Assembly: GCA_903828535.1 (NCBI GenBank)
Contig: CAIKMN010000018.1
Location: 1-45,666, forward strand
Reading direction: 5' to 3'
Source: an uncultured Curvibacter sp.
GTDB taxonomy: Bacteria > Pseudomonadota > Gammaproteobacteria > Burkholderiales > Burkholderiaceae_C
DNA length: 45,666 bases
A model generated the notes under the pieces. It did no database searches, was not told the DNA's origin, and saw only the letters and a program-made list of their open reading frames with translations. Positions 13,838 through 45,666 of this stretch are shown here, piece by piece. Numbering within the stretch: position 1 is the stretch's first letter; each line of letters opens with the position of its first letter. A program made the translations under genes and the position numbers.

Positions 13838-13854
13838 TGGGGTGGCTGATGGGG
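13838..13854 (+). repeat. Left att repeat (17 bp)
   Basis: Exact copy of the 17 bp at 18663-18679 (CCA end, acceptor stem and adjoining bases of tRNA-His). The base on each side differs between copies, so the identity is exactly 17 bp. Confidence 0.85.
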
Positions 13855-13931
13855 GGGTTCTCCACCTCAACAACAACCCTTTGAATCCGTTGCAGTTCTC
13901 CTGCCAAAACCCTGTGGATCAGGCCGTTTTG

Positions 13932-13954
13932 GTGGGAACCCAAAGTGGGAACCC
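13932..13954 (+). repeat. Left paired arm-type sites
   Basis: Two direct copies of GTGGGAACCC at 13932 and 13945, 13 bp apart start to start. The same pair with the same spacing is found at the other end of the element (18587-18609). Such symmetric placement inside both ends is expected of integrase arm-binding sites. Confidence 0.65.
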
Positions 13955-13980
13955 ACTCTGGCGCTAGGGCGATTTTAGCA

Positions 13981-15024: not shown

Positions 15025-15407
15025 AGAACAGATTACGGGATCAACCCCCTGTTTGGCAATGCCTGCACTTGGGGGCTTCGCGCCCCCAAACCCCCGCGAA
15101 CGCCTGCGGCGTTCCTTTCTCTTCTTGTCCAAAAAGAAAAGGAGCGTAGCGACTGAAAGCCCGCATCGCGGGCGTGTCGGGTTTTGGGGTGTCGGGGCGC
15201 AGCCCTGACCGCAAGGAACGTTTGCTCACCACGCAGTGGGGAGAAACGTGTATTGCGCTTGGGGTGAAATCCCCAAGACCCCCGCCGCCCGTCAGTCACG
15301 ACCTCTGGGAGAGATGCGGGCTGCCTTTTGAATCGCTCGCGTTCCGCTCGCTCGGAGGGTTTCACGCTCGCTGGCGCTCGCTCATTGAAGGAAAGACAAA
15401 GCGGGGA
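15025..15407. other. Candidate origin of transfer (oriT) region
   Basis: A gene-free stretch between the relaxase and the divergent small genes. It contains several strong inverted repeats: GGGGGC/GCCCCC around 15069-15085, GAACGCC-TGC-GGCGTTC at 15098-15114, and GCCCGC-ATC-GCGGGC around 15160-15174, plus a purine/pyrimidine run (TTTCTCTTCTTG) and the phased CGCTCGC repeats. Relaxase-adjacent, hairpin-rich DNA of this sort usually carries oriT. No known nic consensus was recognised. Confidence 0.5.
15334..15381 (+). repeat. Four CGCTCGC repeats in helical phase
   Basis: Direct copies of CGCTCGC start at 15334, 15345, 15365 and 15375, spacings 11, 20 and 10. All are close to whole helical turns, so the copies lie on one face of the DNA, as for iterated protein-binding sites. 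They end about 27 bp before the candidate promoter of the small mobilization genes. Confidence 0.6.
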
Positions 15408-15437
15408 TTGACATTTAAGCAGTGATCCACGTAACTG
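15408..15437 (+). promoter_or_regulatory. Candidate sigma-70 promoter of the small mobilization genes
   Basis: A perfect TTGACA at 15408-15413, then 17-18 bp, then GTAACT/TAACTG. It lies about 30 nt upstream of the first small gene, whose ribosome-binding site TTTAGGAG is at about 15450. Confidence 0.5.
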
Positions 15438-15466
15438 GATTTATCAAGGTTTAGGAGATTCAAATT

Positions 15467-15757
15467 ATGGCAACACTGGCACAAATTGAGGCACTGGAAA
15501 AACGAAAAGCAAAAATTGCACAGACGATTTCAGCAGTGAAAAAAGATTTACGCGGTGAAAAAAAGAAAGCCGAAGATCACGTAAAGCTGGCGCTGGGTGG
15601 TGCGGTGTTGGCGTTCTTTGAACATGAGAACTGCCCCCACACCATCCGCCACGTCATTTTGACGAAAGCGGATCAAGGGGTTCAAAAACAAGGCTTGGGG
15701 CGTGAAAAATTTGAAGACCTGAAAGCACGATTCAAAAAAACCGAGGAACAAAAATGA
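15467..15757 (+). CDS. Small mobilization accessory protein (TraD/MobC-like)
   Basis: A 96-residue, strongly charged protein beginning MATLAQIEALEKRKAKIAQTISAVKKDLRGEKKKAEDHVKLALGGAVLAF. The N-terminal heptad-like helix followed by a short hydrophobic GGAVLAFF segment resembles the small TraD/MobC-like proteins often encoded divergently from MobA/MobL relaxases. I do not recognise a specific family with certainty. It has a good AGGAG ribosome-binding site. The next gene overlaps its stop by ATGA, so the two are coupled. Confidence 0.6.
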   Translation: MATLAQIEALEKRKAKIAQTISAVKKDLRGEKKKAEDHVKLALGGAVLAFFEHENCPHTIRHVILTKADQGVQKQGLGREKFEDLKARFKKTEEQK

Positions 15758-15954
15758 AAACGGACGATCTAGAAAAACGAATTTTGCTTTTGGAAGAAAA
15801 AATCAAGATGCTTACGGCTGTATGCTACGGAGACACGCCAAGACTTCGGGCGAGATATGCAGAATGGTTATCAGATACGCCTTATCCCGAGTCTCAAGCA
15901 CTGAGAACTAGAAAAGAGTGGGAAGTAATGGGCAGCACCTTCTCTAATGAGTAG
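15754..15954 (+). CDS. Hypothetical protein, 66 residues, coupled to the previous gene
   Basis: ATG overlaps the preceding stop (ATGA). The product starts MKTDDLEKRILLLEEKIKMLTAVCYGDTPRLRARYAEWL: a short leucine-heptad coiled coil followed by an amphipathic part with several Trp/Tyr. No family recognised. Its position suggests an accessory role in mobilization or copy control. Codon use fits the element. Confidence 0.55.
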   Translation: MKTDDLEKRILLLEEKIKMLTAVCYGDTPRLRARYAEWLSDTPYPESQALRTRKEWEVMGSTFSNE

Positions 15955-16187
15955 CGATATTTGCCAATTTAGCAAAACTAATCGCGCTTGCTTTCCTCAT
16001 CTTTTTAAGCTCGCTAGTGTTTGCATCCTTGGCAGACCTTGCAAACCTTGACCGCTCCTATGTTGGTGGCGTGGAGCGCGGCGAACGTAACCTAACACTT
16101 TTGAACTTGCTCACGCTATCAAAAGCCTTGAATGCCCGCCCTGCACAACTCCTTGCCGTTTTCGACAACACCATCGGAAAACCCTAA
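15951..16187 (+). pseudogene. XRE-family helix-turn-helix regulator remnant
   Basis: From about 16020 to the stop at 16187 the frame reads FASLADLANLDRSYVGGVERGERNLTLLNLLTLSKALNARPAQLL, a textbook XRE/Cro helix-turn-helix. The same frame is open back to 15951 but has no ATG, and its upstream part (IFANLAKLIALAF) resembles the expected first helix only with small frame slips. An ATG at 15947 starts a different frame. This is best explained by one or two indels in a once complete regulator. A GTG at 16017 could start a 57-residue product. Confidence 0.6.
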
Positions 16188-16361
16188 ATCAGAGCAACTG
16201 GCGGGGGATTATACCTTTTAAAGGTACTTAAACGTATCATTGCGCCTGCGAGTGAGGCGAACTGTCCACGGCTGAACCTGTGGGGAACCCCGCTGCTGCC
16301 CTTTGGCATGCATGGGCGGGGTTGTCCATAGGCAGGCGAAGCCTGAGCGGTGGGCAGTGGG

Positions 16362-16835
16362 TTAGAACGCCAGTTGTTTAGCTTTTTGCCCACCCACGTT
16401 GTAAGCCTCTGTACCCTTGATTTCCTTTAGGTTTTCCTTGGCGATCAAGTGTGGATTCAAAAACAATGATCCGCTTTCTGACTTCACCAAAACGCCTGCA
16501 TTGACCAATTTGCTCAGGCTGTTAGTGACTTGCTGGCGCACCAGTTTAGCCTTGTTTGCCACGTCTTGATGGGTGAGGCTAACCACGTTGCCCTGACTGA
16601 CAAAATCCAATACCGTGAGGATCACTTTGAGGTCGGTGGTCGTGAGTTTTTTGTCCACAATAACCGACAGCAAAGACCTGTAAAACAAGATGACAAATGG
16701 CTCATTGGGCTTGATCCTAAAGTCCTTGGGATCGTGAATCACCACGGCAACGCTTTGCCCTTGCGCCATGCTGTCCTCGATCATGCTGCCCGCTAAATCG
16801 GTGGGGCATTGCCCCCCTTTTTTGTATCTACCCAT
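16362..16835 (-). CDS. RepL-like replication/winged-helix protein
   Basis: A 157-residue protein. The core FVILFYRSLLSVIVDKKLTTTDLKVILTVLDFVSQGNVVSLTHQDVANKAKLVRQQVTNSLSKLVNAGVLVKSESGSLFLNPHLIAKENLKE has the layout of RepL replication initiators: a helix pair, a winged helix (residues about 65-125) and the NPHLI end motif close to the NPxxI of that family. A role as plasmid-type initiator for the excised circle is therefore likely; a plain regulator is the alternative. A gap rich in inverted repeats lies immediately upstream. Confidence 0.65.
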   Translation of the reverse strand: MGRYKKGGQCPTDLAGSMIEDSMAQGQSVAVVIHDPKDFRIKPNEPFVILFYRSLLSVIVDKKLTTTDLKVILTVLDFVSQGNVVSLTHQDVANKAKLVRQQVTNSLSKLVNAGVLVKSESGSLFLNPHLIAKENLKEIKGTEAYNVGGQKAKQLAF

Positions 16836-17134
16836 GTTTGGCTCCTAAAAAGAAAAATGACTTTCTTTTTGAAGCAGGTAAGGCGCATTTTGTCAAGGCA
16901 GGGCAATGAAAAAATTGCCATTTGGCAATATTCCCCATGCTGAAAACCACTTGAACTGAAAACGTTTCTATGTAGGATGTTGGCAACGCCTATGTTGCCA
17001 AATTGCAATTTCTACGATGCCAAAAAGCAACGAATTCGTTGCTTGCAACCTCCGCAAACCCGCATGAACATTGAGGTTTCAAAAAACCTTCTTGCTCTTT
17101 CTTATTTTTCTTTGCAACTTTCTTTTTGTTAGCA
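16836..17134. other. Candidate replication origin/operator upstream of repL
   Basis: A gene-free, AT-rich stretch with three strong inverted repeats: ATTGCCA-TT-TGGCAAT (16914-16929), TTGGCAAC-N6-GTTGCCAA (16980-17001) and a perfect 20-bp palindrome AAGCAACGAATTCGTTGCTT (17025-17044). The first two share a TTGGCAA/TTGCCAA core. The combination next to a RepL-like gene suggests an origin and/or autoregulatory sites. Confidence 0.55.
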
Positions 17135-18586
17135 TCATTTTGATGGTCGGGTGGATACGGCTTTTATGCTGATTCGCTTTTTCCGTTCGTCCTGTAATTT
17201 CCACCGATTCAAAAACGCCCTAAACGTAGGATCACTGGCTCTGACGGTTTTCAAGTCCACGGCATAACTGACCGTGTTCAAGGTGTCGCGCAGTTCTGCC
17301 AAGCCCATGCCGTGCGTGTACACCTGAAAATGAATGTTCTGAACCTGTACGCCTTCATGCCCTGTGATCTGCATGGCGTGGGCGGGATTGGCTTTGGCAC
17401 GGTGTAACCCTGTGATGAGGGTGGATCGTGTGCTGTGAAACACTTTGAAGCGGTCTTGGATGCCTAGCTTGTCCAGCCATAGCGCAAACTGACGGGCGGC
17501 GTTTTTACCGTAACCGTTGTTGCCGTCCACCGTGTGCGGGAATAGCCGCTCTGCCCCTATACCCCTGACGTATTCCACGTAATCCCAAAAACCAAGGTCT
17601 AGCAGGGTTTGATGCATGGGCACGGTTCGCCCTACTTTGCTGGTCTTAGTGTCGGTGATTTCCATCGCGTGAACGCCGTCAATGATGCGCACGTTTTGGA
17701 TAGGTAAGCCTGCAATTTCGTTGAGCCGTGCGCCTGAGTACAGGGCAACAATGGGTATCCAGTAATGATCGGGTTTGGGCATTGCGCCCGTGTAGCCCAT
17801 GCCGTAAATCGCTTTGAGTTCGGTGTCCTCGAACGATTTCCAATGCTCTTGTTTCTTTTTTAGCTTGCCCTTGGTGCTAATCAGCAAGCCGTCAACGGGG
17901 CTTTGTTGGTGCTGGCTGTGCCCGTTGCCAATACACCAGTTAAAAAAATCGTTCAGGTAGCCAAGGCGTTTATTGATGCGGCTCGCGCCTGCGCCTTTGT
18001 TCATCTCGTGATTTTTCCATTGCACCAGCGTGGGCTTGTCGTACAGGTTGACTTCCAAGTCCCCCAGCAAGCCCTTGAACTCCTCAAACAAAAGCCCTTT
18101 TTCGTAAATCGTGCGCTTGGCGTTGTCGTGCTGCTTTTCGCGGATATACCCTGCACATGCTTCGCTGAGAGGGCTGGAACGGGCTAGAAGGCGTTTTGGG
18201 GCTACGGTGAGGGGTTGGGTAGCCCTACCCATGTTCATCGCCTGTTGCAGAGGCGGATTCACCCCGTGAATCGCTTTGTAGGCTTCGATGGCTTTCATCA
18301 TGCGATCAAAGTCTTCGGGGCTGTCCGATTTCATGATGCCTCGCGACAAGTCCAGTTCAAACTTGTGCGCGATCTCGTCAAGGCTAGGGAGTGTGGGCTT
18401 TTCGTTCATGGCGCGTTTTCGTTCAAGTGCTTCGTTGAACTGTAACGCCAGCAAACGGGCAACCGTGGGGCTGCGTGTGCCTAGGCTGTGCAGCGTCTCG
18501 CGCCGCTTGCCTGTGGGGTCTTGCCAGATGACACGGAGAGAAAAAACGCCGTGTCGGTTTTGCTTCAACCTCGGAACTCGGATCAT
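17135..18586 (-). CDS. int: Tyrosine-type site-specific integrase
   Basis: A 483-residue integrase. The N-terminal part has an arm-binding-like start (VPRLKQNRHGVFSLRVIWQDPTGKRRETLHSLGTRS), a core-binding SAM-like domain is at about 140-225, and the catalytic domain follows. Catalytic residues are visible: Arg in YSGARLNEIAGL (about 287), Lys in DTKTSKVGRTVP, His-x-x-Arg in FHSTRSTL (about 384-387), His in ITGHEG (about 409), and Tyr in FQVYTHGMG (about 423). It ends 77 bp from the tRNA-His att site, as usual for tRNA-targeting elements. The paired GTGGGAACCC sites abut its start codon, so it may repress itself. Confidence 0.93.
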   Translation of the reverse strand: MIRVPRLKQNRHGVFSLRVIWQDPTGKRRETLHSLGTRSPTVARLLALQFNEALERKRAMNEKPTLPSLDEIAHKFELDLSRGIMKSDSPEDFDRMMKAIEAYKAIHGVNPPLQQAMNMGRATQPLTVAPKRLLARSSPLSEACAGYIREKQHDNAKRTIYEKGLLFEEFKGLLGDLEVNLYDKPTLVQWKNHEMNKGAGASRINKRLGYLNDFFNWCIGNGHSQHQQSPVDGLLISTKGKLKKKQEHWKSFEDTELKAIYGMGYTGAMPKPDHYWIPIVALYSGARLNEIAGLPIQNVRIIDGVHAMEITDTKTSKVGRTVPMHQTLLDLGFWDYVEYVRGIGAERLFPHTVDGNNGYGKNAARQFALWLDKLGIQDRFKVFHSTRSTLITGLHRAKANPAHAMQITGHEGVQVQNIHFQVYTHGMGLAELRDTLNTVSYAVDLKTVRASDPTFRAFLNRWKLQDERKKRISIKAVSTRPSK

Positions 18587-18609
18587 GTGGGAACCCTAAG
18601 TGGGAACCT
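18587..18609 (+). repeat. Right paired arm-type sites, next to the int start
   Basis: GTGGGAACCC at 18587 and GTGGGAACCT at 18600, spacing 13 bp, exactly as at the left end. They touch the integrase ATG (18584-18586), so occupancy would also affect int expression. Confidence 0.65.
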
Positions 18610-18662
18610 GTCGCGAGTTTTTTGGCTGGAAAACCGTTCAAATTCAAGACCTTAGAAAAGGT

Positions 18663-18679
18663 TGGGGTGGCTGATGGGG
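18663..18679 (+). repeat. Right att repeat inside tRNA-His
   Basis: Second copy of the 17-bp repeat. It covers the encoded CCA, discriminator base, 3' acceptor strand and adjacent bases of tRNA-His, so integration leaves a complete tRNA. Confidence 0.85.
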
Positions 18680-18739
18680 CTCGAACCCACGACAACAGGA
18701 ATCACAATCCTGGACTCTACCAACTGAGCTACAGCCACC
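18663..18739 (-). tRNA. tRNA-His (GTG anticodon), integration target
   Basis: Read on the minus strand: an extra 5' G, acceptor GTGGCTG pairing with CAGCCAC, D-loop AGCTCAGTTGGTAGAG, anticodon loop TTGTGAT with GTG, T-loop GGGTTCGAGCCCC, and encoded CCA. The G-1/C73 pair is the histidine identity element. Its terminator is now displaced to 13792-13821. Confidence 0.95.
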
Positions 18740-33989: not shown

Positions 33990-35465
33990 TTATGGAACCC
34001 GCCCGTAGGTGTCGTCAAAGCGGACGATGTCGTCCTCACCTAAATAGGAGCCCGACTGCACCTCAATCAACTCCAAAGGCACGCGGCCTGGGTTGGATAA
34101 CCGGTGGGTGACGCCCAGCGGAATGTAGGTGCTCTGGTTTTCGCTCAACAACAGCACTTGGTCGCCATTGGTGATTTCTGCCGTGCCTTTAACCACAATC
34201 CAATGCTCGGCGCGGTGGTGGTGCATTTGCAAACTGAGCGACGCACCGGGTTTCACCATGATGCGCTTCACCTGAAACCGGGCGCCCATGTCGATGCTGT
34301 CGTACCAACCCCATGGGCGGTGCACTTTGCGGTGCAGGGTCTGTTCGCCGCGCTTTTGTTCATTCAGCAAATTCACAATTTGCTTGACTTCTTGGCTCTT
34401 GCTTCGAGCCGACACCAACACCGCATCGGGCGTTTCGACCACCACGACATCGTCCAAACCCACGACGCTCACCAAGCGTGACGTGGCGTGCACCAAGGTG
34501 TTGCGGCTGTCTTTGATGATCGCGTCACCACGGAAGGCGTTGCCATCGGCGTCTTTTTCGGCCACTTGCCAAACCGCCTCCCAAGCGCCCAAATCGTTCC
34601 AGCCGGCATCCAAGGGCACCATGGCCAAGGGAATGTCGGCCAAGTCGGTTTTGCCTGGAATTTTTTCCATCACGGCATAGTCAATGGATTCTGAGGGCAC
34701 CGCGGCAAATTCGGCTTTGCCGGGTCGTACAAAAGTGGCGCTGGTGCTGTTGTCGACGGCACGGGCCTCAAAGGCCGCTTGGGTCGCGGTCAAAATATCC
34801 GGGCGGGTGCGCTCAAGGGCTTTCAGCCAAACACTGGCCTTCAACACGAACATGCCGCTGTTCCAAAAGTAGCCGCCATCGGCCAAATATTGAGCCGCCG
34901 TTTCGGCGTTGGGCTTTTCGACGAACTGGGCCACGTTCCAAATGCCCTCATTGGCCTTGGCAACATGGGCGTGGATGTAGCCATAACCCGTCTCAGGCCG
35001 GTCAGGCGTAATGCCCAAAATCACCAAAGCGCCCTGCTCTGCTTGTCTCACTGCGGTTTGCAAAGCCGCTTGAAAAGCAGGCTCGTTCGTCACGGTTTGG
35101 TCGGCAGGCGTGACCACCAACACGGGGTCTTGGCCGTCGGCTGTGGCTTGCAATGCCGCCAAGGTCAAGGCGGGGGCGGTGTTTCGCCCCATCGGCTCGA
35201 GCAACAAGGCGCTCAAGGGCAAGCCGGTTTCGCGCAATTGGTCCACCACCAAAAAGCGGTGCTCATCGTTGCCGACCACCAAGGTGGGCTGAACCTGAAT
35301 GTCGGGGGCTGTTAAACCATTCAAACGACGCACCGCTTGCTGAAACAAGCTGTGCTCGCCAGAAAAGACCAAAAACTGCTTAGGGAAACCAGCGCGGGAG
35401 AGCGGCCACAAACGAGTGCCGCTGCCACCAGCCATGACAATGGGCAAAATGGAAATGGATTTCAT
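33990..35465 (-). CDS. manC: Mannose-1-phosphate guanylyltransferase / mannose-6-phosphate isomerase
   Basis: Bifunctional enzyme giving GDP-mannose (and fructose-6-P/mannose-6-P interconversion), 491 residues. N-terminal nucleotidyltransferase: PIVMAGGSGTRLWPLSRAGFPKQFL, with LVVTPADQTV and FVEKPNAETAAQYLADGGYFWNSGMFV. C-terminal type II isomerase cupin: HRPWGWYDSIDMGARFQVKRIMVKPGASLSLQMHHHRAEHWIVVKGTAEITNGD. It overlaps the upstream TPR-glycosyltransferase gene by 4 nt (ATGA), so the two are translationally coupled. GDP-mannose feeds glycans and, after two more steps not encoded here, GDP-fucose. Confidence 0.96.
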   Translation of the reverse strand: MKSISILPIVMAGGSGTRLWPLSRAGFPKQFLVFSGEHSLFQQAVRRLNGLTAPDIQVQPTLVVGNDEHRFLVVDQLRETGLPLSALLLEPMGRNTAPALTLAALQATADGQDPVLVVTPADQTVTNEPAFQAALQTAVRQAEQGALVILGITPDRPETGYGYIHAHVAKANEGIWNVAQFVEKPNAETAAQYLADGGYFWNSGMFVLKASVWLKALERTRPDILTATQAAFEARAVDNSTSATFVRPGKAEFAAVPSESIDYAVMEKIPGKTDLADIPLAMVPLDAGWNDLGAWEAVWQVAEKDADGNAFRGDAIIKDSRNTLVHATSRLVSVVGLDDVVVVETPDAVLVSARSKSQEVKQIVNLLNEQKRGEQTLHRKVHRPWGWYDSIDMGARFQVKRIMVKPGASLSLQMHHHRAEHWIVVKGTAEITNGDQVLLLSENQSTYIPLGVTHRLSNPGRVPLELIEVQSGSYLGEDDIVRFDDTYGRVP

Positions 35466-37534
35466 GGACCCATTATTTCACGGCGTGATCGCAATTCCTC
35501 GGCCATTTCTTCAAAAACCGTGTCCCAATCGTTCCAACGCGTTTGACGGAACAAACGGTGGTTTGGGTACCAGGGGCTGTCGGTGCGGCCCAACAACCAA
35601 CGCCAATCGGGCACATGAGACAAAGCCACCCAGGTGGGCCTGCCCAAAGCACCTGCCAAATGGGCCAAGGCGCTGTCGCTGGTAATGACCAAGTCCAAGG
35701 ACATCATGACGGCGGCAGAATCCATGAAGGCCCCAGCGCCCACATCGAAGTCGGGGCCAAGGTCTTCGACCTCCATGCCCTCTGGCAATTGGGCCAGTTG
35801 CTCGGAACCAGCCCCTTTTTGCAAACTGATCAAACGAACGCCTTTAATTTGGGCGAATTTCTCAAACTGCGCGAGATTGAATGAGCGCCCCCGGTCCAAA
35901 GGGCCCAGGCTACCTTGCCAAGCGATGCCGATTTTGAAGCCTTCAAAGCCGATGCGCTTTTGCCAAAGGTCCACTCGTTGAGGGTCGGCTTTGAGGTAGG
36001 GTTCAGACGTCGCGGCGTTGTCGAGGCGGGTACCCAAAACGCCCGGCAAACTCAACAAGGCACAGTGAAAATCCGTCTCAGGCAAAGGCCCTTTGCCTTT
36101 CGCACGCCAAGACTTGACGCCTGAAAGACCACCCAAAACACCTTGCAGAACAGAGGGCACTTCAAACACCACGGCGGCGCCGCGTTTGGCCACTTGGGGC
36201 ACGTAGCGGGCGAATTGAAGCGCGTCGCCCAAGCCTTGTTCGGCTTGAACCAAGATTGACTTTCCCGCAATGTCCTCTTGGCCCGTCCAGCGCTTAGAGC
36301 CATTGGGGGTGAAGTGTCCGGCACTCTCAGCGCGGCGTTTGCGCGCTTCGTAATGCGTCCAACCCGCCTCCATTTGGCCTTGTTGCAACAAAGCCAAAGC
36401 CAAATTGAACTCAATCTCCGCCGACGTCGGCGCCAATTGATAAGCCCTTTGCTGGTGGGCCATGCCTTGTTCGTGCGAGCCCAATTCCCGCAGCACTTGG
36501 CCTAAATTCGAGTGAACTTGGGCGTTGTCGGGTGACAACACCAAAGCCGAGTGGTAGCTGTCCCTCGACTCCTCGAGCCGCCACAGCGCCCGCAAGGCAT
36601 TGCCACGGTTCAAATGGACCTCGGAGCGCTGAGGCCCCGCGCCGATGGCAGCGTCAAAATCGGCCAGGGCGAGTTCAAATTTCTGTTGGGCACCGTAAGC
36701 CATGCCCCGATTGCTCAGCACGCGCCAAGTTTGGCCAGCCAACCCGCACTCCAAAGCACGGGTGTAGCAATTCACCGCCGAATCAAAAGCCTTTAGCTCC
36801 TGCATGACTACGCCCAAATTAAAATAGGCATCGCCGTAGTGGGGAGAAGCAGCCAACGCTTTTTGGTAACACGTCACCGCTTGGTCAAACGCCCTTAAGT
36901 CACGGTGCAGGTTGCCCAAATTGCTTAAAACCAAGGGCCAATCGGGCCGGTGTTTCAAAGCCTGCTCGTAGCCAGTGCGTGCGCGCTCAAAGTCACCCTG
37001 CAAATGCCAAACCAGCGCCCGATTGGCCTGGGCATGAAATTGATTGGCATCGATCAGTGTCGCCACGTCATAAGCTTCACCGGCCTCCACGTTTCGCCCC
37101 AAGGCCAACAAGGCGTCACCTCGACGTGTGTGCGTTTCGGGGTCAATCGGGCGGTAATCACTTAGCACCTCAAAACACATCAAGGCACTGGCGTGGTTGC
37201 CCAGTTGGCTGAAAACTTGGCCCAAATTGGCATAGGCGGAAGGCTCATTCGGGCGCAACTCCAAGGCACGCTGGTACCAACTCAGGGCATCAAAAGCGTT
37301 GCCTTCTTGCAGAGCCAGACTGCCCATCAATTGGGCCGCACCAAAGTCATTCGGCTCTAGGGATAAGGCGTGCAAACACAGAGAGCGAGATGCACTCAAA
37401 TTGCCCTTGCGCCATAGAAGAATCGCATCTGCCACCAGATCGGCCTGCGCCCGCTCCGCTGCATCCAGATCTGACCGGATGCCGGGGCCCATTTCTGGGC
37501 TTTGTTCGCGTTTAGATGAAGAATGGTTTTGCAC
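35462..37534 (-). CDS. TPR-repeat protein with glycosyltransferase (GT9/OGT-like) C-terminus
   Basis: A 690-residue protein. Residues about 30-400 are tetratricopeptide repeats (units like AIDADxxxPxxxxAxxNLGxxxxxLG; e.g. PNEPSAYANLGQVFSQLGNHASALMCFE, PHYGDAYFNLGVVMQELKAFDSAVNCYTRAL). The rest is glycosyltransferase-like: GLGDALQFARYVPQVAKRGAAVVFEV, IGIAWQGSLGPLDRGRSFNL and DLVITSDSALAHLAGALGRPTWVALSHVPDWRWLLGR. This is the TPR-plus-transferase layout of bacterial protein or polysaccharide glycosyltransferases. No signal or membrane segment, so cytoplasmic. The divergent partner is a Ser/Thr/Asn-rich repeat protein. Substrate unproven. Confidence 0.85.
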   Translation of the reverse strand: MQNHSSSKREQSPEMGPGIRSDLDAAERAQADLVADAILLWRKGNLSASRSLCLHALSLEPNDFGAAQLMGSLALQEGNAFDALSWYQRALELRPNEPSAYANLGQVFSQLGNHASALMCFEVLSDYRPIDPETHTRRGDALLALGRNVEAGEAYDVATLIDANQFHAQANRALVWHLQGDFERARTGYEQALKHRPDWPLVLSNLGNLHRDLRAFDQAVTCYQKALAASPHYGDAYFNLGVVMQELKAFDSAVNCYTRALECGLAGQTWRVLSNRGMAYGAQQKFELALADFDAAIGAGPQRSEVHLNRGNALRALWRLEESRDSYHSALVLSPDNAQVHSNLGQVLRELGSHEQGMAHQQRAYQLAPTSAEIEFNLALALLQQGQMEAGWTHYEARKRRAESAGHFTPNGSKRWTGQEDIAGKSILVQAEQGLGDALQFARYVPQVAKRGAAVVFEVPSVLQGVLGGLSGVKSWRAKGKGPLPETDFHCALLSLPGVLGTRLDNAATSEPYLKADPQRVDLWQKRIGFEGFKIGIAWQGSLGPLDRGRSFNLAQFEKFAQIKGVRLISLQKGAGSEQLAQLPEGMEVEDLGPDFDVGAGAFMDSAAVMMSLDLVITSDSALAHLAGALGRPTWVALSHVPDWRWLLGRTDSPWYPNHRLFRQTRWNDWDTVFEEMAEELRSRREIMGP

Positions 37535-37560
37535 TTGAAATCTCTTTTCCGTGCACTTTG

Positions 37561-37616
37561 AATCGGTTTGATTGCCAAATACTTAAGTACTCAAGTAATG
37601 GCCAATCGGACCGATT
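37561..37616. promoter_or_regulatory. Long imperfect palindrome between the TPR-transferase and repeat-protein genes
   Basis: Left arm AATCGGTTTGATTG-CCA (37561-37577) and right arm TGGCCAATCGGACCGATT (37599-37616) are complementary except two mismatches and one gap. The centre contains TACTTAAGTA. It fills most of the 92-nt divergent gap and may be a shared operator for both genes. Confidence 0.6.
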
Positions 37617-37626
37617 AATAGGGGCA

Positions 37627-40600
37627 ATGACAATTCTCAGCGTCACCGCCGCTTCAACCAACTATTACGCCACGGCGCCCTCGGGTCCGGTCAGTGTGGC
37701 TCAAGCGTTGTCCCAACTGGCTGCCAACCCCAGACTCAAACTGGGCATTTCGGACAGCACCCAGAACATTCAAAACAACATAGACCTGCTGAACCAATAC
37801 CGCAACAACCTGACGGCATTGGCTCAGACAGACGCATCCACCCATTTGTCTTTAACCGCGAGCACCTTCAATATGGTATCGGGGCTGTTGCACAAAATCA
37901 GCACCAATTACCAAGTTGACGTCACTGCAGCCGGCACAGCCAGTGCCGCTAGTTTGAACAGCAATACCCATGTCAGCAGTTACACCGTCAGCGACATCAG
38001 CACCAACATTGCGAGCCAAATTGCCACGTTAAACAACAGCAAACTGACCAGCATCAGCTTGCTGGATTCTCAGAACTTGGTGAAATTGACGGCCACACAG
38101 TTCGCAGCCAACAGCAGCGTTATTGGCAAAATGACAGGTTCCAATGGTTTCAATGTCAGTGCCGCCACGGTGGCTCAAGCCTTGACCTATGCAGGGAACA
38201 GCCAAGTAAAGGCTGTATCGATCTCAGATTCGGTCAGTAACATTGACGCCGGTCTCGATCAAATCAATGCCCTCGGGGTCAAACTGAATCAAATCAAAGG
38301 CTCAGATTCCAGTCGTTATGAAATGACGGCCGCTCAATTCCAGGCTGATAGCTTGGCCATTGGCAAGCTTTATAAAGGTTATCAATTAACGATTGACAAT
38401 GCCAGCGTGGCAGAGTCTTCCAACATTGCGGCCAATAAAAGTGTGGTGGCCTTGAGCGTGGTGGACAACGCTGCCAATCTGTCCAGCCGAATGGCTTTTT
38501 TGAATAGTTTGGGGACCAAGCTTCAAAAAATCGACTTCAGCGGTGTTGATGCCAACGATGCAACCACGACGCAATTGACGCTCACCAGCGCTCAGTATTA
38601 CGCCAGCAGTGCCACGCTTGCCAAAATCAGTGCGACACCTGCGTTTACCTTCGCCATTCAGGGTGCCAGCGCTTTGGATGCCGAAGCCTTTAAAACCATC
38701 GACGCCATCACCTCCATTTCCGTGGCGGACACCGGCAAAAATTTGTCCAGTGCATGGGGTCAGTTGAAGGTCAATGACAAAGTCGGCAGCATTGCCGAAA
38801 CTGGAAAATCCACACCCTTGAGCGTCAGCTACAACGACCTGATTGATTCAAGCAACCATCAGCTCACCACTTCAGCAGCCACGTTCCTCGGCAAATTTGC
38901 TTCAGGCTACAGCCTCAATGTGAGTGACGTTCCGGTGGGACAAGCCACCAGTCTGTTGAACTATTTACCCAACATTCAGTCTATTTCGGTCACAGGCAAC
39001 TCTGCCGATGTCACCGCCCAGTTGCCAGCCTTGGCCAGCATGGGAAAGACTTTGCAAGCCATTCAGCTGTCCAACCCCAGCACACCCATGGGCATGAGTG
39101 TGGGTGATTGGTCAAAAAATATCGGTGTGCTGGCCAAAATTCAAGGTGGTTATGGGTTGACCCTGAGCAACGTTTCCGCTGGCAATGCCGCCAAGTTCGT
39201 CTTAGATCCCCACGTGCGCTCTGTCTCCGTCAGCGATACCAGCGCTGCCATTGCAGCCAATTTGGACAGCCTGAACTCGATGGGCAGCCAGCTGACTGCT
39301 TTAACCCAGACCGACACCACCCCACTGTCCATCACTGGACAACAATGGGCCAATGACCAAACCGCTTTGGCTTTACTCGGCTCTGGTGCTCAACTGGCCG
39401 TTAAAAATGCAACTGCCTCACAAGTCACGGCACTCGCCAGCGACGCCACCGTGAAATCGGCCACTGTCAGTGACACGGGCGCCAACATTGCCTCGAACCT
39501 CAGCAGTATCCAAACCGCGGTGACAACCTCCGGGGCGCCTTCCATCACCATCAAGCAATCAGATAAAACCGCCATTGCTTTGACAGCAACTCAGTACGCA
39601 AGTGACGCAGCTGCACTGAGCGCAATTTCAAACCCCTACACCCTTAATGTGTCAGGTGTATCGGCCAGTACAGCGACGACAGTGGCACAAAATGCCCATG
39701 TCGTGGCCATGACCGTCAACAGTTCTGCTTCAGACTTGGCAACGCATCTGGCTGAATTCAATGGCATTGGCGACAAACTCACCAGCATCAACCAAACGGA
39801 CCCGGCCAACAATGTGAGTTTGACGGCTTCCCAATGGACCAACAACCAAAGCGCCCTGTCCAAAGTGAGCAACGGCAGTAAATATGCGTTGTCTGAGGTC
39901 ACTGCAACTCAAGCCGCCTCTCTTGCTCAAGACAGCAGAATCAAGTCGATGGTGGTCTCTGATACGGGTGCCCAGATATCAGCCAATTTAGACAAGCTCC
40001 AATTGGTGGGGCAGCAACTGCAAAACATCCACCAAAGCGATACAAGCAATATATCGATCAGCATGGCGCAATACGCCAACGATGCTGGCGCAATTGCCAA
40101 GCTCGGTGCTGCATCTACCTTGCAAATCACGGGTGCCACTGCGATTCAAGCCCTTGCAATCAACGACTCGAAAGTCAGCGCCATTCAAATTGCCGATACG
40201 AGTGCGAACATTTCAGCCAAATTGGACGCCCTTCAAACACTTCAGGGCGGTGGCTTACTCAGCGGAATCACGCTAACAGGCTCGCCACAGCCTTTGAACT
40301 TAAAAAATGCACAGTTGACGAGCGACGTGGACGCATTGGCCTTAATACAAAATGGCTTTAAAGCCAACATTACCGATGCCGGCATCGCTGATGTTCATAC
40401 TTTAGGTGCTAATTCCAATGTGGCCAGCATGGCCGTGACGCTCACCCCGGACGATTTAGGCAACGACGTCAAACTGGGCTATTTAAAAACAGCCAATAGC
40501 AAAATCACGGGCATCCAGTTTGCAACAGGCACGAGCGCCAACCCCACCTTGAGTCTGTCCGCCGCCCAATGGACCACCAACCAAGTGGTCTTTGGCAAAT

Positions 40601-41862
40601 TGGCTTCCAACTTCAAAGTGGCCTTGACCGGTGTATCGGCAACTTCTGCGCAATCTCTTGCGCAAGATACTCGAGTGAACAGTTTGGACATCGTCGACAC
40701 GGCAAGTGGTATTCAAAACAACCTCACCAGCTTGGCAAGCTTGGGGACAAAACTGTCCTCCATTTCACCCATCACTTCGGGTGACAATTTAGCGTTGACT
40801 TTGACAACAGGTCAATATGCTGCCGCGGGCTCTGTCTTTACAGCCCTCAGCCATGGCACAGGCACATACAGCCTCAGCATTACCAACGCCAATGCGGACC
40901 AAGCTCAGGCGATGACCGCAGACACGAGGGTCAATAACATTTCTGTGAAAGACACGGCTGCCAATATCGTTAACCATTTGGCAGATTTAACCGCCAATTC
41001 TGCGGTGAGCCATATCCAATTGACCGACCCCAACACCGCCCTGAACTTGACGGGAACACAATATGCTTCTACAAGCGTTCAAACCACCTTGGGCTTGATC
41101 GTCGGCGGCTATTCTTTGAACATTAGCAATGCCACGGTGGCCAACTCTACTGACCTGCAAAGCAATAGCCATGTCGTGGCCTTTAGCCTGTCGGACAGCA
41201 CCACTCATATCGATGCACAACTCTCCGCCCTGGCCAACATGAGCAAATTGGGTGACATCAACATCAGCCAAAACAACGGCCTGATCACGGTCACTCAAGC
41301 ACAAGTCAACACGGATCCGAGCATTTTGGCCCAATTGCAAGGCCCTTATGGATTGAAGGTCAGCGGGGCCAGCATCGCTGATCTGGCCGACACGTTACAA
41401 CTTCCTAACCTCAGCTCGGTGACGATTACCGATACAGCCGCCCATGTGTCCGCCAACTTTGATCAGTTGGTTCAATTGGGAAGTACAGTGGCCGGCATCA
41501 GCATCAGCGACTCGAGCACACCAATTGCTTTGAGCGAGACTCAATACCAGCAAGGCGGCAGCACATTAGCAAGCATTCAAAACTATTCTGTTGCCATTCT
41601 GAACGCTACCGCACAGGACGCCAATAATCTGGCCACAGACGCCAGCGTGGCATCTGTCAGTGTGGCCGATACCGCCGCCAGCATCCTCAGCAATCTGAGC
41701 GACCTTAACACCTTGGCCGCCCAAACCAACAGCAAGTTGGATTCAATTTCAATCAGCGACAACCAGCCATTGTTGATGACGCAGGCCGATCAAACCTCAT
41801 ACCAAGCAGCGCTTGATTTGATTCAAGGGCCTTTTAACTTGGTCATTTTGCCAGCGGCTTGA
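37627..41862 (+). CDS. Giant cysteine-free repeat protein (about 17 units of about 80 residues)
   Basis: A 1411-residue protein from the ATG at 37627; the earlier in-frame ATG overlaps the divergent gene and is not used. It contains no cysteine and is rich in Ala, Ser, Thr, Asn and Asp. From about residue 36 to the end there are about 17 degenerate repeats, each reading roughly SVSDT-x-x-NI-x3-LD-x-L, then LT-x-I-x-Q-T-D, then LTATQYA-x-D-x2-AL-x-KI, then GY-x-LNVS-x-A-x-A, ending x-x-D-x-x-V. No N-terminal signal peptide and no RTX nonapeptides. This is the build of a secreted surface layer, adhesin or matrix protein, probably exported by an unmapped type I system. Function unknown; see findings. 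Confidence 0.85.
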   Translation: MTILSVTAASTNYYATAPSGPVSVAQALSQLAANPRLKLGISDSTQNIQNNIDLLNQYRNNLTALAQTDASTHLSLTASTFNMVSGLLHKISTNYQVDVTAAGTASAASLNSNTHVSSYTVSDISTNIASQIATLNNSKLTSISLLDSQNLVKLTATQFAANSSVIGKMTGSNGFNVSAATVAQALTYAGNSQVKAVSISDSVSNIDAGLDQINALGVKLNQIKGSDSSRYEMTAAQFQADSLAIGKLYKGYQLTIDNASVAESSNIAANKSVVALSVVDNAANLSSRMAFLNSLGTKLQKIDFSGVDANDATTTQLTLTSAQYYASSATLAKISATPAFTFAIQGASALDAEAFKTIDAITSISVADTGKNLSSAWGQLKVNDKVGSIAETGKSTPLSVSYNDLIDSSNHQLTTSAATFLGKFASGYSLNVSDVPVGQATSLLNYLPNIQSISVTGNSADVTAQLPALASMGKTLQAIQLSNPSTPMGMSVGDWSKNIGVLAKIQGGYGLTLSNVSAGNAAKFVLDPHVRSVSVSDTSAAIAANLDSLNSMGSQLTALTQTDTTPLSITGQQWANDQTALALLGSGAQLAVKNATASQVTALASDATVKSATVSDTGANIASNLSSIQTAVTTSGAPSITIKQSDKTAIALTATQYASDAAALSAISNPYTLNVSGVSASTATTVAQNAHVVAMTVNSSASDLATHLAEFNGIGDKLTSINQTDPANNVSLTASQWTNNQSALSKVSNGSKYALSEVTATQAASLAQDSRIKSMVVSDTGAQISANLDKLQLVGQQLQNIHQSDTSNISISMAQYANDAGAIAKLGAASTLQITGATAIQALAINDSKVSAIQIADTSANISAKLDALQTLQGGGLLSGITLTGSPQPLNLKNAQLTSDVDALALIQNGFKANITDAGIADVHTLGANSNVASMAVTLTPDDLGNDVKLGYLKTANSKITGIQFATGTSANPTLSLSAAQWTTNQVVFGKLASNFKVALTGVSATSAQSLAQDTRVNSLDIVDTASGIQNNLTSLASLGTKLSSISPITSGDNLALTLTTGQYAAAGSVFTALSHGTGTYSLSITNANADQAQAMTADTRVNNISVKDTAANIVNHLADLTANSAVSHIQLTDPNTALNLTGTQYASTSVQTTLGLIVGGYSLNISNATVANSTDLQSNSHVVAFSLSDSTTHIDAQLSALANMSKLGDINISQNNGLITVTQAQVNTDPSILAQLQGPYGLKVSGASIADLADTLQLPNLSSVTITDTAAHVSANFDQLVQLGSTVAGISISDSSTPIALSETQYQQGGSTLASIQNYSVAILNATAQDANNLATDASVASVSVADTAASILSNLSDLNTLAAQTNSKLDSISISDNQPLLMTQADQTSYQAALDLIQGPFNLVILPAA

Positions 41863-42071: not shown

Positions 42072-43241
42072 TTGAATAATCAAGATATTGAAAGACAACT
42101 TGCCGAAGCAATTAAAGACCATCAGCAGGGTCGATGGTCAGAAGCAGCTAAGAACTATCAGCGTGTCATTGACGCCGACGCCACTCATTCGGTGGCGTTG
42201 AACAACTACTCGCTACTACTGACTGATGAAGATGCTGTACTGCTATTGACCCGCGCTCTTGACGCAAACCCCGATTACACAGATGCACTTGTGAACTTAG
42301 GCGTCAGATATTTAAATTTAGGGCATATCGAAGAAGCACAAAAGATTGCTGAACGGGCCTATGATTCAGCACCCATGGATCAAAAGGTAGAACAACTCAA
42401 AGCGAGTTTAAAAATATTATTAGCCCAAAAAACAGAAGAGCAGATCAATTATTGGCCTGACTTCTCGGTCCTAATTCCCACACATAAGCGTCCAGTTCTA
42501 CTAGCAAGGGCTTTGCAATCCATCAAGCAGCAGGTAAGTACTGCCACACTTGAGATTATTGTGGTGTCAGACCACATCGACGAAAAAACCGATCAGACAT
42601 GTCATGCATGGCTTGACTCGACTGACACCTACATTCGGCGATCTGGACCACCAGGACCATCAGCGAGTAGAAACTTGGCTCTAAAAATGGCTAAAGGTAG
42701 ATTCATTCTTTTTTTAGACGACGACGATGCGTGGCATCCTAACTTTATTGAACAGCTTAATAGATGTGAAACTCTAAGAAAAGGATCCCCAATCTATTTT
42801 AATTGCTCTGTACTAAAAGAGAACAGAGGTCAACAAGAGCCCGTTCTATTAAGCGAGAAATTAGTTAACAATCAAGGCAGGTTGACACATGAAGTCTTCG
42901 TGAAAAATCAATTATCCAATTCAACATTGGCATTCCCGAGAGAGATTTTAAGTAATATTCAATTCGATACTCATATGAAAGCCTACGAGGATTGGGAGTT
43001 CTTACTTTCCGTATGTGAAAGGAAATTTCCCACCTACGAGCCAATTTTAGGGCCCAAAATTCATGAGGTTGACGACTCTACAACCGATCGAAGAGGAAGC
43101 CAAGAAAACGCAAACAACGAAAATGCAGTTTTAGACTATTTGTATGTTTACAAAAAACACCCGGTCAATGCCCCGATAAGAACACTTAGGCAAAAACTAT
43201 TGGAATCTGCAGGCTTCAATTCTTTAAATTCATACTTATAA
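42072..43241 (+). CDS. TPR plus GT2-family glycosyltransferase (TTG start)
   Basis: A 389-residue protein that starts at a TTG with GGAG 5 nt upstream. The first 120 residues are tetratricopeptide-like (QDIERQLAEAIKDHQQGRWSEAAKNYQRVIDADATHSVALNNYSLLL). The GT2 domain follows: FSVLIPTHKRPVLLARALQSIKQQ, then the acceptor motif RFILFLDDDDAWHPNF with the divalent-metal DDD. It transfers a sugar from a nucleotide donor, identity unknown. It shares the TPR/GT build of the divergent gene at 35462-37534. Confidence 0.85.
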   Translation: MNNQDIERQLAEAIKDHQQGRWSEAAKNYQRVIDADATHSVALNNYSLLLTDEDAVLLLTRALDANPDYTDALVNLGVRYLNLGHIEEAQKIAERAYDSAPMDQKVEQLKASLKILLAQKTEEQINYWPDFSVLIPTHKRPVLLARALQSIKQQVSTATLEIIVVSDHIDEKTDQTCHAWLDSTDTYIRRSGPPGPSASRNLALKMAKGRFILFLDDDDAWHPNFIEQLNRCETLRKGSPIYFNCSVLKENRGQQEPVLLSEKLVNNQGRLTHEVFVKNQLSNSTLAFPREILSNIQFDTHMKAYEDWEFLLSVCERKFPTYEPILGPKIHEVDDSTTDRRGSQENANNENAVLDYLYVYKKHPVNAPIRTLRQKLLESAGFNSLNSYL

Positions 43242-43256
43242 GTTCAAAAAAATCAG

Positions 43257-44144
43257 ATGCCAAAAATAACATTTGTTATTCCAGCCAAAAATGCACAGAA
43301 AACATTGGCAGAAACACTTACAAGCTTAGTTTCTCAAACATTTAAAGATTTTAATGTAATTATTGTAGATGATGGATCTACAGACCAAACTGCGCTAATT
43401 GCACAAACGTTTCAAGAAAAATTACCCATAAAAATTATTAGTCACCCTGAATCTGAAGGGGTGGCTAAATCTATCAATGATGGAATTATGCGTTCTGACT
43501 CTGAGTTTGTTGCAAGATTAGATGCCGATGACACAGCGCATCCTTTACGACTTCAGAAACAACTTGATTTTTTCGAATCAAATCAAAAAATAGGAATCTG
43601 TGGAAGTCAGATGAATGTATTTTCAGATGATGGACTCACTCACTATGTACTTTCACATCCAACAAGCAGTGCTTCAATTAAAACAGCATTAATCCAGCGT
43701 TGTGTGCTTGCCCACCCTTCCCTTTTAATCCGTAGAAGCGTTTTTGAAATAGCAGGTCTTTATGATGTTAATTTTGACTATGCTGAAGACTATGATTTAT
43801 GGTGCCGGGCAAGTTTACTAGGGATACAATTTGCAAATATAAACGAACAGCTAACAAACTATAGAATACACAGCGGACAAGTTTCTAACCAAAAGTCTCA
43901 ATTACAACAGGTCAGAGATTTAGCAATCAAAAAAAAATATATTAGTGCCTTCTTAGACGGTGATGACCCAGAAGAACTCCCCAAGTTCTTATCCTTAACC
44001 AATCAATATGAAAACAAAATAACTTCCCTCAATGCCTATCTAAAATGCGGAAAAAATATTTTACAATTGGCTAAAAATATTCCAGATACCGAAGAATACC
44101 ATCGAATTATCTTCGGCTCACTCATTCGACATCTTAATCAATAG
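43257..44144 (+). CDS. GT2-family glycosyltransferase
   Basis: A 295-residue GT-A-fold transferase: PKITFVIPAKNAQKTLAETLTSLVSQTFKDFNVIIVDDGSTDQTA near the start, ARLDADDTAHPLRLQKQLDFF with the DXD metal motif (about 85), then HPSLLIRRSVFEIAGLYDVNFDYAEDYDLWCRA, a typical GT2 acceptor region. No membrane segment. AT-rich and with codon use clearly different from the core genes, suggesting acquisition. It starts 15 nt after the previous stop. Confidence 0.9.
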   Translation: MPKITFVIPAKNAQKTLAETLTSLVSQTFKDFNVIIVDDGSTDQTALIAQTFQEKLPIKIISHPESEGVAKSINDGIMRSDSEFVARLDADDTAHPLRLQKQLDFFESNQKIGICGSQMNVFSDDGLTHYVLSHPTSSASIKTALIQRCVLAHPSLLIRRSVFEIAGLYDVNFDYAEDYDLWCRASLLGIQFANINEQLTNYRIHSGQVSNQKSQLQQVRDLAIKKKYISAFLDGDDPEELPKFLSLTNQYENKITSLNAYLKCGKNILQLAKNIPDTEEYHRIIFGSLIRHLNQ

Positions 44145-44169
44145 CAATTTATTATTTCCAAAATAAAAA

Positions 44170-44862
44170 ATGATAATTAATTACCTAAAAGGCGGAATAG
44201 GAAATCAGATTTTTCAACACGCCTTAGCAAAAAGTCTAAGCCTAAGACTAAATAGAGAATTATTCACTGAAATTAGCTATTACCAGCATGACCCCTATGG
44301 ATTTAAATCTAAAATCCAAAATATAGACCCCGACATCAAATTCATCAATATAAGAGACATTGACAAGACGGGTGCATACCTATTAAAAGAAGGGCAAATA
44401 TCAAAATTAAATGAAATAAAGCACCTCCCGGATTCAATAAAAATATTAATTTTAGAAGGCTATTGGCAAGGCGAAGAGTATTTCGACAAGAAAATAGCAA
44501 TAGATTTCATCGAAAATATAAAGAAATATTCAACAAACCTTGAAAACAACAATGAAATTGCCAATAAAATCAACACATCCGATTCTCCGATAGCTCTTCA
44601 TATCCGAAGAAGAGACTATGGACACATGGGTTTATGCAAAACAAGCTATTATTCTGCGGCAATTGATTTCCTAAAATCGCTTAATTCAAACTCAGAATTG
44701 TTTGTTTTTTCAGATGAGCCCAATTACACACGGCATTTACTGGAAAGTCGAAATTTAAGCTTTACTCTAATTGATACCGGGGATGACTCAGTTGATTTAT
44801 ACCTGATGTCAAGATGCAAAAATTTTGTCATCTCTAATTCTCCCGAGTTCGACACCAAGTGA
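44170..44862 (+). pseudogene. Alpha-1,2-fucosyltransferase (GT11), 3' end lost to IS insertion
   Basis: About 224 native residues of a GT11 fucosyltransferase: start MIINYLKGGIGNQIFQHALAKSLSLRL, donor-binding motif ALHIRRRDYGHMG (about residue 142), then ELFVFSDEPNYTR. The protein reads CKNFVISNS and then changes to PEFDTK and a stop; normal GT11 continue with a serine/tryptophan-rich segment after NS and are about 60-70 residues longer. The break is at about 44842, where the IS begins. Uses GDP-fucose as donor. Probably inactive. Confidence 0.85.
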
Positions 44863-45666
44863 CGCAAGTTGTTGATTCATATAGGTCGCCCTATTTTTTT
44901 ACCACTACAACAGGCTCAGTTGCTCGTTTTTGATCGGCTTGTTGACTTTCAATGCGTTGAACACTTGCGCTTGTGCGTCGCTGATGGTGCTGACTCCTTC
45001 CATCGGCTCGGCCTGGTTGATACGCACCTTGTGGCGCTGTATCTTTCTCAAATGGGCCAATGCCCTCTCTGGGCTCAAATCACTCTTGGCTTGTTTCAGC
45101 CTTTGACGCATCACCCTGTAGACAATCAACGCCATGAAGCAAATTTGCGCGTGCGCCCGGATTCTGTCGGGCAGCCGGTGGTAAACCGGTGCAATCTCTA
45201 TCTCGGACTTCAAAACCCTGAAGCCTCGCTCAATATCGGCCAGCGCCTTGTAGCGCTGCACAATTTCTGCGGGCGTCAAGTCCGCCACGTTGGTCACCAG
45301 CATCAGCTTGCCGTCCATCAACTGCGCCTGCGCCAAGGCGGCCTCATCTACCGCGTACGAGAACAAATCGCTTTTGAGGTCCACCTTGAGGATGTTCGCC
45401 AAACGAGCTTCTTTGACCGCGTGGTACAGCCGCGCCTTGGCGCCGCTGTCCGAGAGTTTGCGCCCCTTGGCGCTTTGCCCAGCATCCTGGCCATCGAGCT
45501 TGCCCGCCCAGTGGGCCGCCTGCTCTTCCAGTGCTTTGATCTTGTCACGGCGCAGCTGGCTTTGCTCTTGGGCACGCTGCGGGTGGTGCGCCACGATCAG
45601 TCGGCGCTCTTTCCAGCGGGTTTCTTCAACGACCTCTTCTTGCGCCCCTGCAGCCTTGGCTTGCAA
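44842..45666. mobile_element. Insertion sequence of the IS1634 type, left part in window
   Basis: The element begins where the GT11 reading frame breaks and continues past the window edge. Only its transposase 3' end is present. Terminal inverted repeats cannot be assigned without the other end. Confidence 0.75.
44905..45666 (-). CDS. IS1634-like transposase, C-terminal part (incomplete)
   Basis: At least 253 residues, cut off by the window end. The fragment includes KALADIERGFRVLKSEIEIAPVYHRLPDRIRAHAQICFMALIVYRVMRQRLK, the catalytic Glu region and signature of IS1634/IS4-type DDE transposases, and an N-terminal charged part (LRRDKIKALEEQAAHW). Ends ...EQLSLL. GC and codon use differ from the glycosyltransferases it adjoins. 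Confidence 0.9.
   Translation of the reverse strand: MQAKAAGAQEEVVEETRWKERRLIVAHHPQRAQEQSQLRRDKIKALEEQAAHWAGKLDGQDAGQSAKGRKLSDSGAKARLYHAVKEARLANILKVDLKSDLFSYAVDEAALAQAQLMDGKLMLVTNVADLTPAEIVQRYKALADIERGFRVLKSEIEIAPVYHRLPDRIRAHAQICFMALIVYRVMRQRLKQAKSDLSPERALAHLRKIQRHKVRINQAEPMEGVSTISDAQAQVFNALKVNKPIKNEQLSLL

Follow-up and report, generated by a model that had tools for sequence, protein, structure and literature searches.

Contig CAIKMN010000018.1 of an uncultured Curvibacter sp. (assembly GCA_903828535.1), analyzed here from position 1 to 45,666 (the window), carries at positions 37627 to 41862 of the forward strand a gene for a 1,411-aa protein made of 17 units of about 80 aa. The analysis leads us to regard this repeat protein not as an orphan but as one that is linked to the flagellum, belongs to a solenoid repeat family without a name, and is paired with a transferase of its own, i.e., a tetratricopeptide repeat (TPR) glycosyltransferase encoded divergently at 35462 to 37534 (reverse strand). 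The reading that we favor, with a probability of about 0.5, is that the repeat protein is a late flagellar protein, which the FlmG-like TPR-transferase would O-glycosylate in the cytoplasm and the flagellar apparatus would export. An earlier note on this DNA had described a repeat solenoid without a curated family, which stood, and had missed the back-to-back sigma28-type sites, by which both the gene and the TPR-transferase would join the flagellar regulon.

Sigma28-type sites ahead of the repeat gene and the TPR-transferase gene

The two genes diverge from a 92-bp gap in which two sigma28 (FliA)-type sites stand back to back, one directed toward the repeat gene and the other toward the TPR-transferase gene. 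The former, TCAAGTAA-N11-ACCGATTA (37591 to 37617, forward strand), ends 9 nt ahead of the ATG; the latter, TTAAGTAT-N11-ACCGATTC (37560 to 37586, reverse strand), ends 25 nt ahead of the GTG at 37534. Three flagellar promoters picked out with the E. coli FliA consensus served as controls: TCAAGTTT-N11-TCCGATTC for fliC and TCAAGTTA-N11-TCCGATAA for fliD of genome G1076, and TTAAGTTT-N11-GTCGATTC for one fliC of the window's own genome (G000). On the matrix built from these three promoters (two of them from G1076, itself the genome of one of the loci tested), the TPR-transferase site ranked first and the repeat gene site second among the 91,278 positions of both strands. A seven-site matrix gave the same order in the 45.7-kb window, with a score of 16.1 for the repeat gene site and 11.9 for the third site. 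The pattern TYAAGT-N14-CCGATT, composed after both sites were already known, matched the window only at these two places, also with one mismatch allowed; in 100 shuffles, two exact matches occurred in 0/100 and two matches with one mismatch in 6/100. The 111 bp ahead of the ATG show 2 differences from a genome of the same genus (G008), compared to a synonymous divergence (dS) of 0.53 for the gene itself.

The site recurs ahead of related genes. Five proteins, i.e., those of the window, G008, G1076, G1077, and G1158, form a subfamily of pure arrays that consist of the units and an N-terminal leader only; with the window and G008 copies counted as one, they represent four independent loci, whose proteins share 31 to 39% identity. 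On the seven-site matrix, the sites of the window, G1076, G1077, and G1158 scored 16.1 (at −36), 19.6 (−35), 10.8 (−36), and 11.2 (−34), respectively, scores reached by fractions of 0.0008, 0.0007, 0.007, and 0.0004 of 60-bp windows, the site's own included. The corresponding fractions on the three-site matrix were 0.0007, 0.0005, 0 (of 584, with the stride skipping over the site), and 0.0004. The shorter pattern TCAAGT-N14-CCGAT matched four genomes 18 times in all (4, 3, 9, and 2) versus 0, 0, 1, and 0 for the reversed pattern. Eleven of the 18 precede fliS (three), flgM, fliD, fliC, flaG, the repeat gene (three), or another repetitive protein recognized by eye; FliS of G000 and G1076, FlgM, FliD, FliC, and FlaG were confirmed by Pfam, and the G008 fliS was named for its resemblance to the G000 gene. 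The remaining seven matches have no gene assigned.

The −10 box ends 7 to 9 nt ahead of the ATG in the four independent loci (37617 to 37627 in the window; L051 of G1076, L052 of G1077, and L118 of G1158), and the mRNA would therefore be nearly leaderless. The flagellar control genes begin 32 to 88 nt from the box, with the exception of one G1076 fliS frame whose start was taken at an upstream TTG.

A coincidental promoter pair would leave room for a surface or S-layer-like glycoprotein belonging to a variable surface-glycan island unconnected to flagella. ManC and glycosyltransferases do surround the repeat gene, and the sugar genes downstream differ between G000 and G008 (see below); against this, the two top sites of the window both lie in one gap and the position of the site recurs in four loci with differing neighbors, leaving such a glycoprotein very unlikely. 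Co-regulation of the repeat gene and the TPR-transferase gene in the cell is highly probable on the strength of these sites.

The repeat protein and its relatives

The longest frame of the repeat gene opens at an ATG at 37516 (1,448 aa), a start that was dropped because it overlaps the divergent gene and places both promoter sites within the extension. The ATG at 37627, from which the frame runs to the stop ending at 41862, was preferred because the orthologues from G1076, G1077, and G1158 align from that Met and because the interval between the two ATGs contains the promoter site. The gene is under purifying selection, with a ratio of nonsynonymous to synonymous substitutions (dN/dS) of 0.12 relative to the G008 copy over 1,412 codons and a maximum of 0.151 among 200-codon blocks.

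As the earlier note had claimed, the protein contains no Cys and about 17 repeats of about 80 residues. A unit profile trained on the protein itself, the scores of which are hence descriptive, found 17 stretches across residues 41 to 1410 (57 to 85 bits each in the last round) and gave 0 matches in 200 shuffled copies. Autocorrelation peaked at lag 242 (z 5.9), which corresponds to three units, followed by lags 79 (z 4.6), 245 (z 4.3), 51 (z 3.6), and 80 (z 3.4), lag 26 being weaker (z 2.6). Ser and Thr make up 24.2% of the residues, Glu 0.5%, and Arg 0.6%. The solenoid that had been expected was predicted by AlphaFold2: four units were modeled as an alpha/beta solenoid with a predicted local distance difference test score (pLDDT) of 95.3. 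The alternation of strand and helix initially read from the letters recurs in this model, which is slightly richer in elements than proposed (strand-helix-helix-strand-strand-helix-helix-strand-helix). Leucine-rich-repeat and TIM-barrel alpha/beta folds are among the closest known systems.

About 20 residues precede the solenoid as an N-terminal leader (37627 to 37686, forward strand). Its residues 1 to 14 are uncharged and predicted to be disordered, with pLDDT under 50 in an AlphaFold2 model on a three-sequence alignment, and its NYY motif is kept in the window, G008, L051, and L052 proteins and absent from that of G1158. The leader is a possible export signal. The protein has no signal peptide by inspection and no RTX nonapeptide repeats (PF00353 was without a match in the Pfam scan up to E 1), in line with the original description.

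No model of Pfam or NCBIfam, S-layer families included, reached its cut-off, and no PHROG matched; no annotated family in these curated libraries covers the protein, which had rightly been called undescribed. The other finding that was to count against the note, a cytoplasmic location, did not emerge either. A sequence search of the PDB gave no match either, and the four-unit profile retrieved from it only two antibody chains (E 0.3). The unit is not unique to this protein, a point that the note had missed: it recurs in RTX, metalloprotease, and DUF4214 proteins of other proteobacteria. In its own genome the protein was found at this place only (E up to 1), and G008 carries a copy that is 88.7% identical. 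Whole-protein searches found a match in 3 of 100 relatives; with an E limit of 1e-6, the unit profile matched 2 of 300 genomes in the order and 7 of 398 in the phylum, and among the 369 of the class it matched G000 alone; and the four-unit profile matched 6 of 399 genomes in the family (own genome included in each count). A DNA pattern for DT[AS]AN[IV]xxNLDxL led to 14 loci in named records, all 14 of which matched the unit profile; they include Limnohabitans, Polynucleobacter rarus, Bradyrhizobium macuxiense, Methylococcales, Acetobacteraceae, and other Burkholderiales.

Nine unit-bearing proteins were scanned for further domains. RTX repeats exceeded the Pfam cut-off in three and fell just below it in a fourth, and the other domains were choice-of-anchor L (one), DUF4214 with Calx-beta (one), a matrixin/serralysin-like protease (one), and NF038122 metalloprotease (three). 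Because of these companions, the unit appears to be a building block of exported proteins. The RTX, NF038122, and DUF4214 proteins (L025, L027, L037, L041 to L043, L047, and L050) carry a unit homologous by profile to that of the window protein and add RTX, protease, or DUF4214 domains to it, whereas the window protein consists of nothing but the array and its leader. Among the other pure arrays, L051 has 17 units in 1,426 aa, the G1158 protein has 14 units in 1,175 aa, and L052 is cut by the contig end at 879 aa; Cys is absent from all five.

The sigma28 site is found only in the pure-array subfamily and not in the RTX, NF038122, and DUF4214 carriers scanned. None of 17 other repeat-bearing open reading frames (ORFs) reached 10 on the seven-site matrix (highest, 8.2) in about 400 bp each, beginning 150 nt ahead of the frame and reaching 250 nt into it, so that starts further inside escape; three of these frames begin off the locus (L041, L044, and L054), and L027 and L049, whose frames begin at the locus end, were excluded. 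The RTX-genome relative L048 scored −1.2.

ALTTAQ repeat proteins (PF20080) have in common with the window protein, by eye, a helix-starting LTxxQ motif; their repeats are shorter by eye, and the window protein has no PF20080 match. G1076 encodes a 495-residue, Cys-free ALTTAQ-repeat protein (63.4 bits) between flagellin genes (L066, 4210 to 5694), which has its own sigma28-type site, TCAAGTTT-N11-ACCGAATC; L097 holds a second repetitive protein preceded by such a site.

Flagellar context and proposed glycosylation and export

The window's own genome, 99.99% complete, encodes FliA (TIGR02479, 230 bits versus a cut-off of 189.6; contig C17, 6482 to 7231). The same contig carries FlhA, FliS, an FlhF-like frame below the cut-off and, by eye, MotA/B, FlhG, and FliK, while contig C14 carries two flagellins, FlaG and, by eye, fliD, flgL, flgK, and fliF to fliJ frames. 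The FlgK-like frame (L122, 15052 to 18486), named by eye, is Cys-free and, at 1,143 residues, unusually long for FlgK. FlhA was found in six of eight genomes and was absent from G056 (86% complete) and G1079. Flagellar genes lie near two of the three other independent pure-array loci: the G1076 repeat gene shares its contig with flhA, flagellins, fliF, fliG, fliI, and fliJ (the end of fliJ is 5.6 kb from the repeat gene), and L052 comes after a FliK-like ORF (E 2.5e-5; 24.4 bits, below the Pfam cut-off of 29.8). Taken together, promoter, context, and gene content make it likely that the pure-array protein belongs to the late flagellar regulon.

Under the favored reading, the repeat gene would be a late (sigma28/FliA) flagellar gene, and the back-to-back FliA promoters would switch it on together with the TPR-glycosyltransferase gene after hook completion. 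The FlmG-like TPR arm of the transferase would bind the Ser/Thr-rich repeat protein in the cytoplasm for O-glycosylation by the GT-B domain. The Cys-free protein, with its disordered, uncharged N terminus, would then leave unfolded via the flagellar type III apparatus, refold outside as a long alpha/beta solenoid, and serve as decoration, adhesin, or shield at the filament or next to it.

The comparison with FlmG rests on domain layout. FlmG, the enzyme of Caulobacter flagellin O-glycosylation, uses its TPR domain to bind flagellins, which it glycosylates in the cytoplasm (PMC7591256). Its N-terminal TPR and C-terminal GT-B-type domain (~290 residues) are as in the window transferase. In the latter, TPR occupy approximately residues 1 to 400, with TPR models of Pfam matching, and a GT9-like (GT-B) domain follows (PF01075 at residues 565 to 634; 23.9 bits, cut-off 22); its dN/dS relative to G008 is 0.075. 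Both systems have in common a gene assigned to the flagellar regulon by its promoter and a substrate, here a candidate, without a signal peptide; they differ in that the candidate substrate is a repeat solenoid and not a flagellin. Glycosylation of the repeat protein by its neighbor has, in our estimate, an even chance of being correct.

The TPR-transferase might instead modify flagellin, the true FlmG role, with the repeat protein merely co-expressed, for example as a cytoplasmic scaffold that is neither substrate nor exported. Very low Glu and Arg, high Ser plus Thr (24% here), and no Cys are unusual in a cytoplasmic scaffold, and the relatives of the unit are domains of RTX and secreted-protease-type proteins. 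The binding and modification of flagellins by FlmG (PMC7591256) and the putative nature of the export signal speak for such a scaffold, which we nonetheless consider improbable.

As for export, a review (PMC8306008) relates that in some bacteria nonflagellar proteins exit through the flagellar apparatus. An alternative is a large adhesin with flagellar co-regulation and ATP-binding cassette (type I) export, as proposed for V. cholerae FrhA. This RTX adhesin is, like the window protein, very large, repetitive, and flagellar regulated; according to PMC6890996, its expression follows the flagellar hierarchy, including FliA, in which it is a class 4 gene, its secretion is poorly understood, and it carries Calx-beta and cadherin repeats, whereas the window protein has no such domain and no RTX. 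FrhA shows that flagellar timing can serve a large adhesin for which another export route is proposed. Type I export would agree with the occurrence of unit relatives in RTX-type proteins and with the type I adaptor TIGR01843, which was over the cut-off in 10 of the 13 genomes asked. The three without it are G1079, G000, and G008; in the latter two, the best score was 42 bits (in G000 an EmrA-like frame beside an MFS frame, by eye) and no C39 match was found. These absences, in a genome as complete as G000, and a repeat protein free of RTX repeats make type I export unlikely. Flagellar export of the repeat protein, the step assumed in the favored reading, we regard as evenly balanced, and a role on or near the filament may be proposed only tentatively.

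Several points weigh against the favored reading. On the three-site matrix, the third site of the window comes close behind the repeat gene site (13.2 versus 14.3), and four of the seven members of the larger matrix (fliS twice, flgM, and flaG) were found with a pattern partly shaped on the repeat gene sites. A convincing site is missing from the other of the two G000 fliC genes. The signal is weak when the bare E. coli consensus is used (fractions of 0.012, 0.047, 0.070, and 0.0017 of 60-bp windows for the four loci), and other positions then score as high as the window sites (11 of 16; rank 7, 26 ties). In L052, position −67 fits a 12-base version better than the proposed site does. The TPR-transferase of G1076 showed no site scoring 13 or more, and no TPR-transferase was seen by eye near the repeat gene of G1158 (L118, 6417 to 15199), which lies beside frames resembling, by eye, MSHA-type IV pilus assembly genes. 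The absence of Cys is weak evidence, FliF and FliG frames being likewise Cys-free.

Should the favored reading hold, some freshwater Burkholderiales would send out large glycosylated solenoids as well as flagellins through their flagellar apparatus, FlmG-like transferases would have nonflagellin substrates, and a repeat family missing from the curated libraries searched would gain a name; promoter pair, transferase, and substrate form a short list testable in one motile strain. A bolder proposal, which we find rather doubtful, is that of a new class of flagellar accessory: a giant Cys-free alpha/beta solenoid with a nearly leaderless mRNA that would be the dedicated substrate of its own FliA-controlled TPR-glycosyltransferase, exported by the flagellum, and coat or extend the filament, the unit relatives elsewhere using other export routes. 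The module would therefore have switched export systems.

Glycan genes and mobile elements of the window

The divergent TPR-transferase gene and the three transferase genes after the repeat gene had been recognized correctly. According to Pfam, the latter encode a TPR plus family 2 glycosyltransferase (42072 to 43241), a family 2 glycosyltransferase (43257 to 44144), and a family 11 (fucosyl-type) glycosyltransferase (44170 to 44862; E 1e-8, no NCBIfam match), all on the forward strand. On the reverse strand, next to the TPR-transferase gene, a mannose-1-phosphate guanylyltransferase/mannose-6-phosphate isomerase for GDP-mannose supply is encoded at 33990 to 35465 (TIGR01479; 645 bits, over the cut-off). 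The sugar genes behind the repeat gene (42072 to 44862) are wholly unlike between the sister genomes, with GT2, GT2, and GT11 in G000 and UDP-galactopyranose mutase and DUF4422 in G008 (L040), a pattern as in exchanged glycan islands. Because of this difference, the glycosyltransferase neighbors by themselves were dropped as decisive evidence. In G1076, the divergent neighbor of the repeat gene is a TPR-GT41 gene.

Directly behind the GT11 gene, a DDE transposase frame (PF01609, 25.4 bits) occupies 44905 to 45666 and runs past the window end. A small mobilizable element lies at 13838 to 18679, at the 3′ end of a tRNA-His gene (18663 to 18738, reverse strand). It encodes an integrase (17135 to 18586) and a MobA/MobL relaxase (13981 to 15132), both on the reverse strand, and is bounded by a perfect 17-bp direct repeat (13838 to 13854 and 18663 to 18679) resembling attachment sites.

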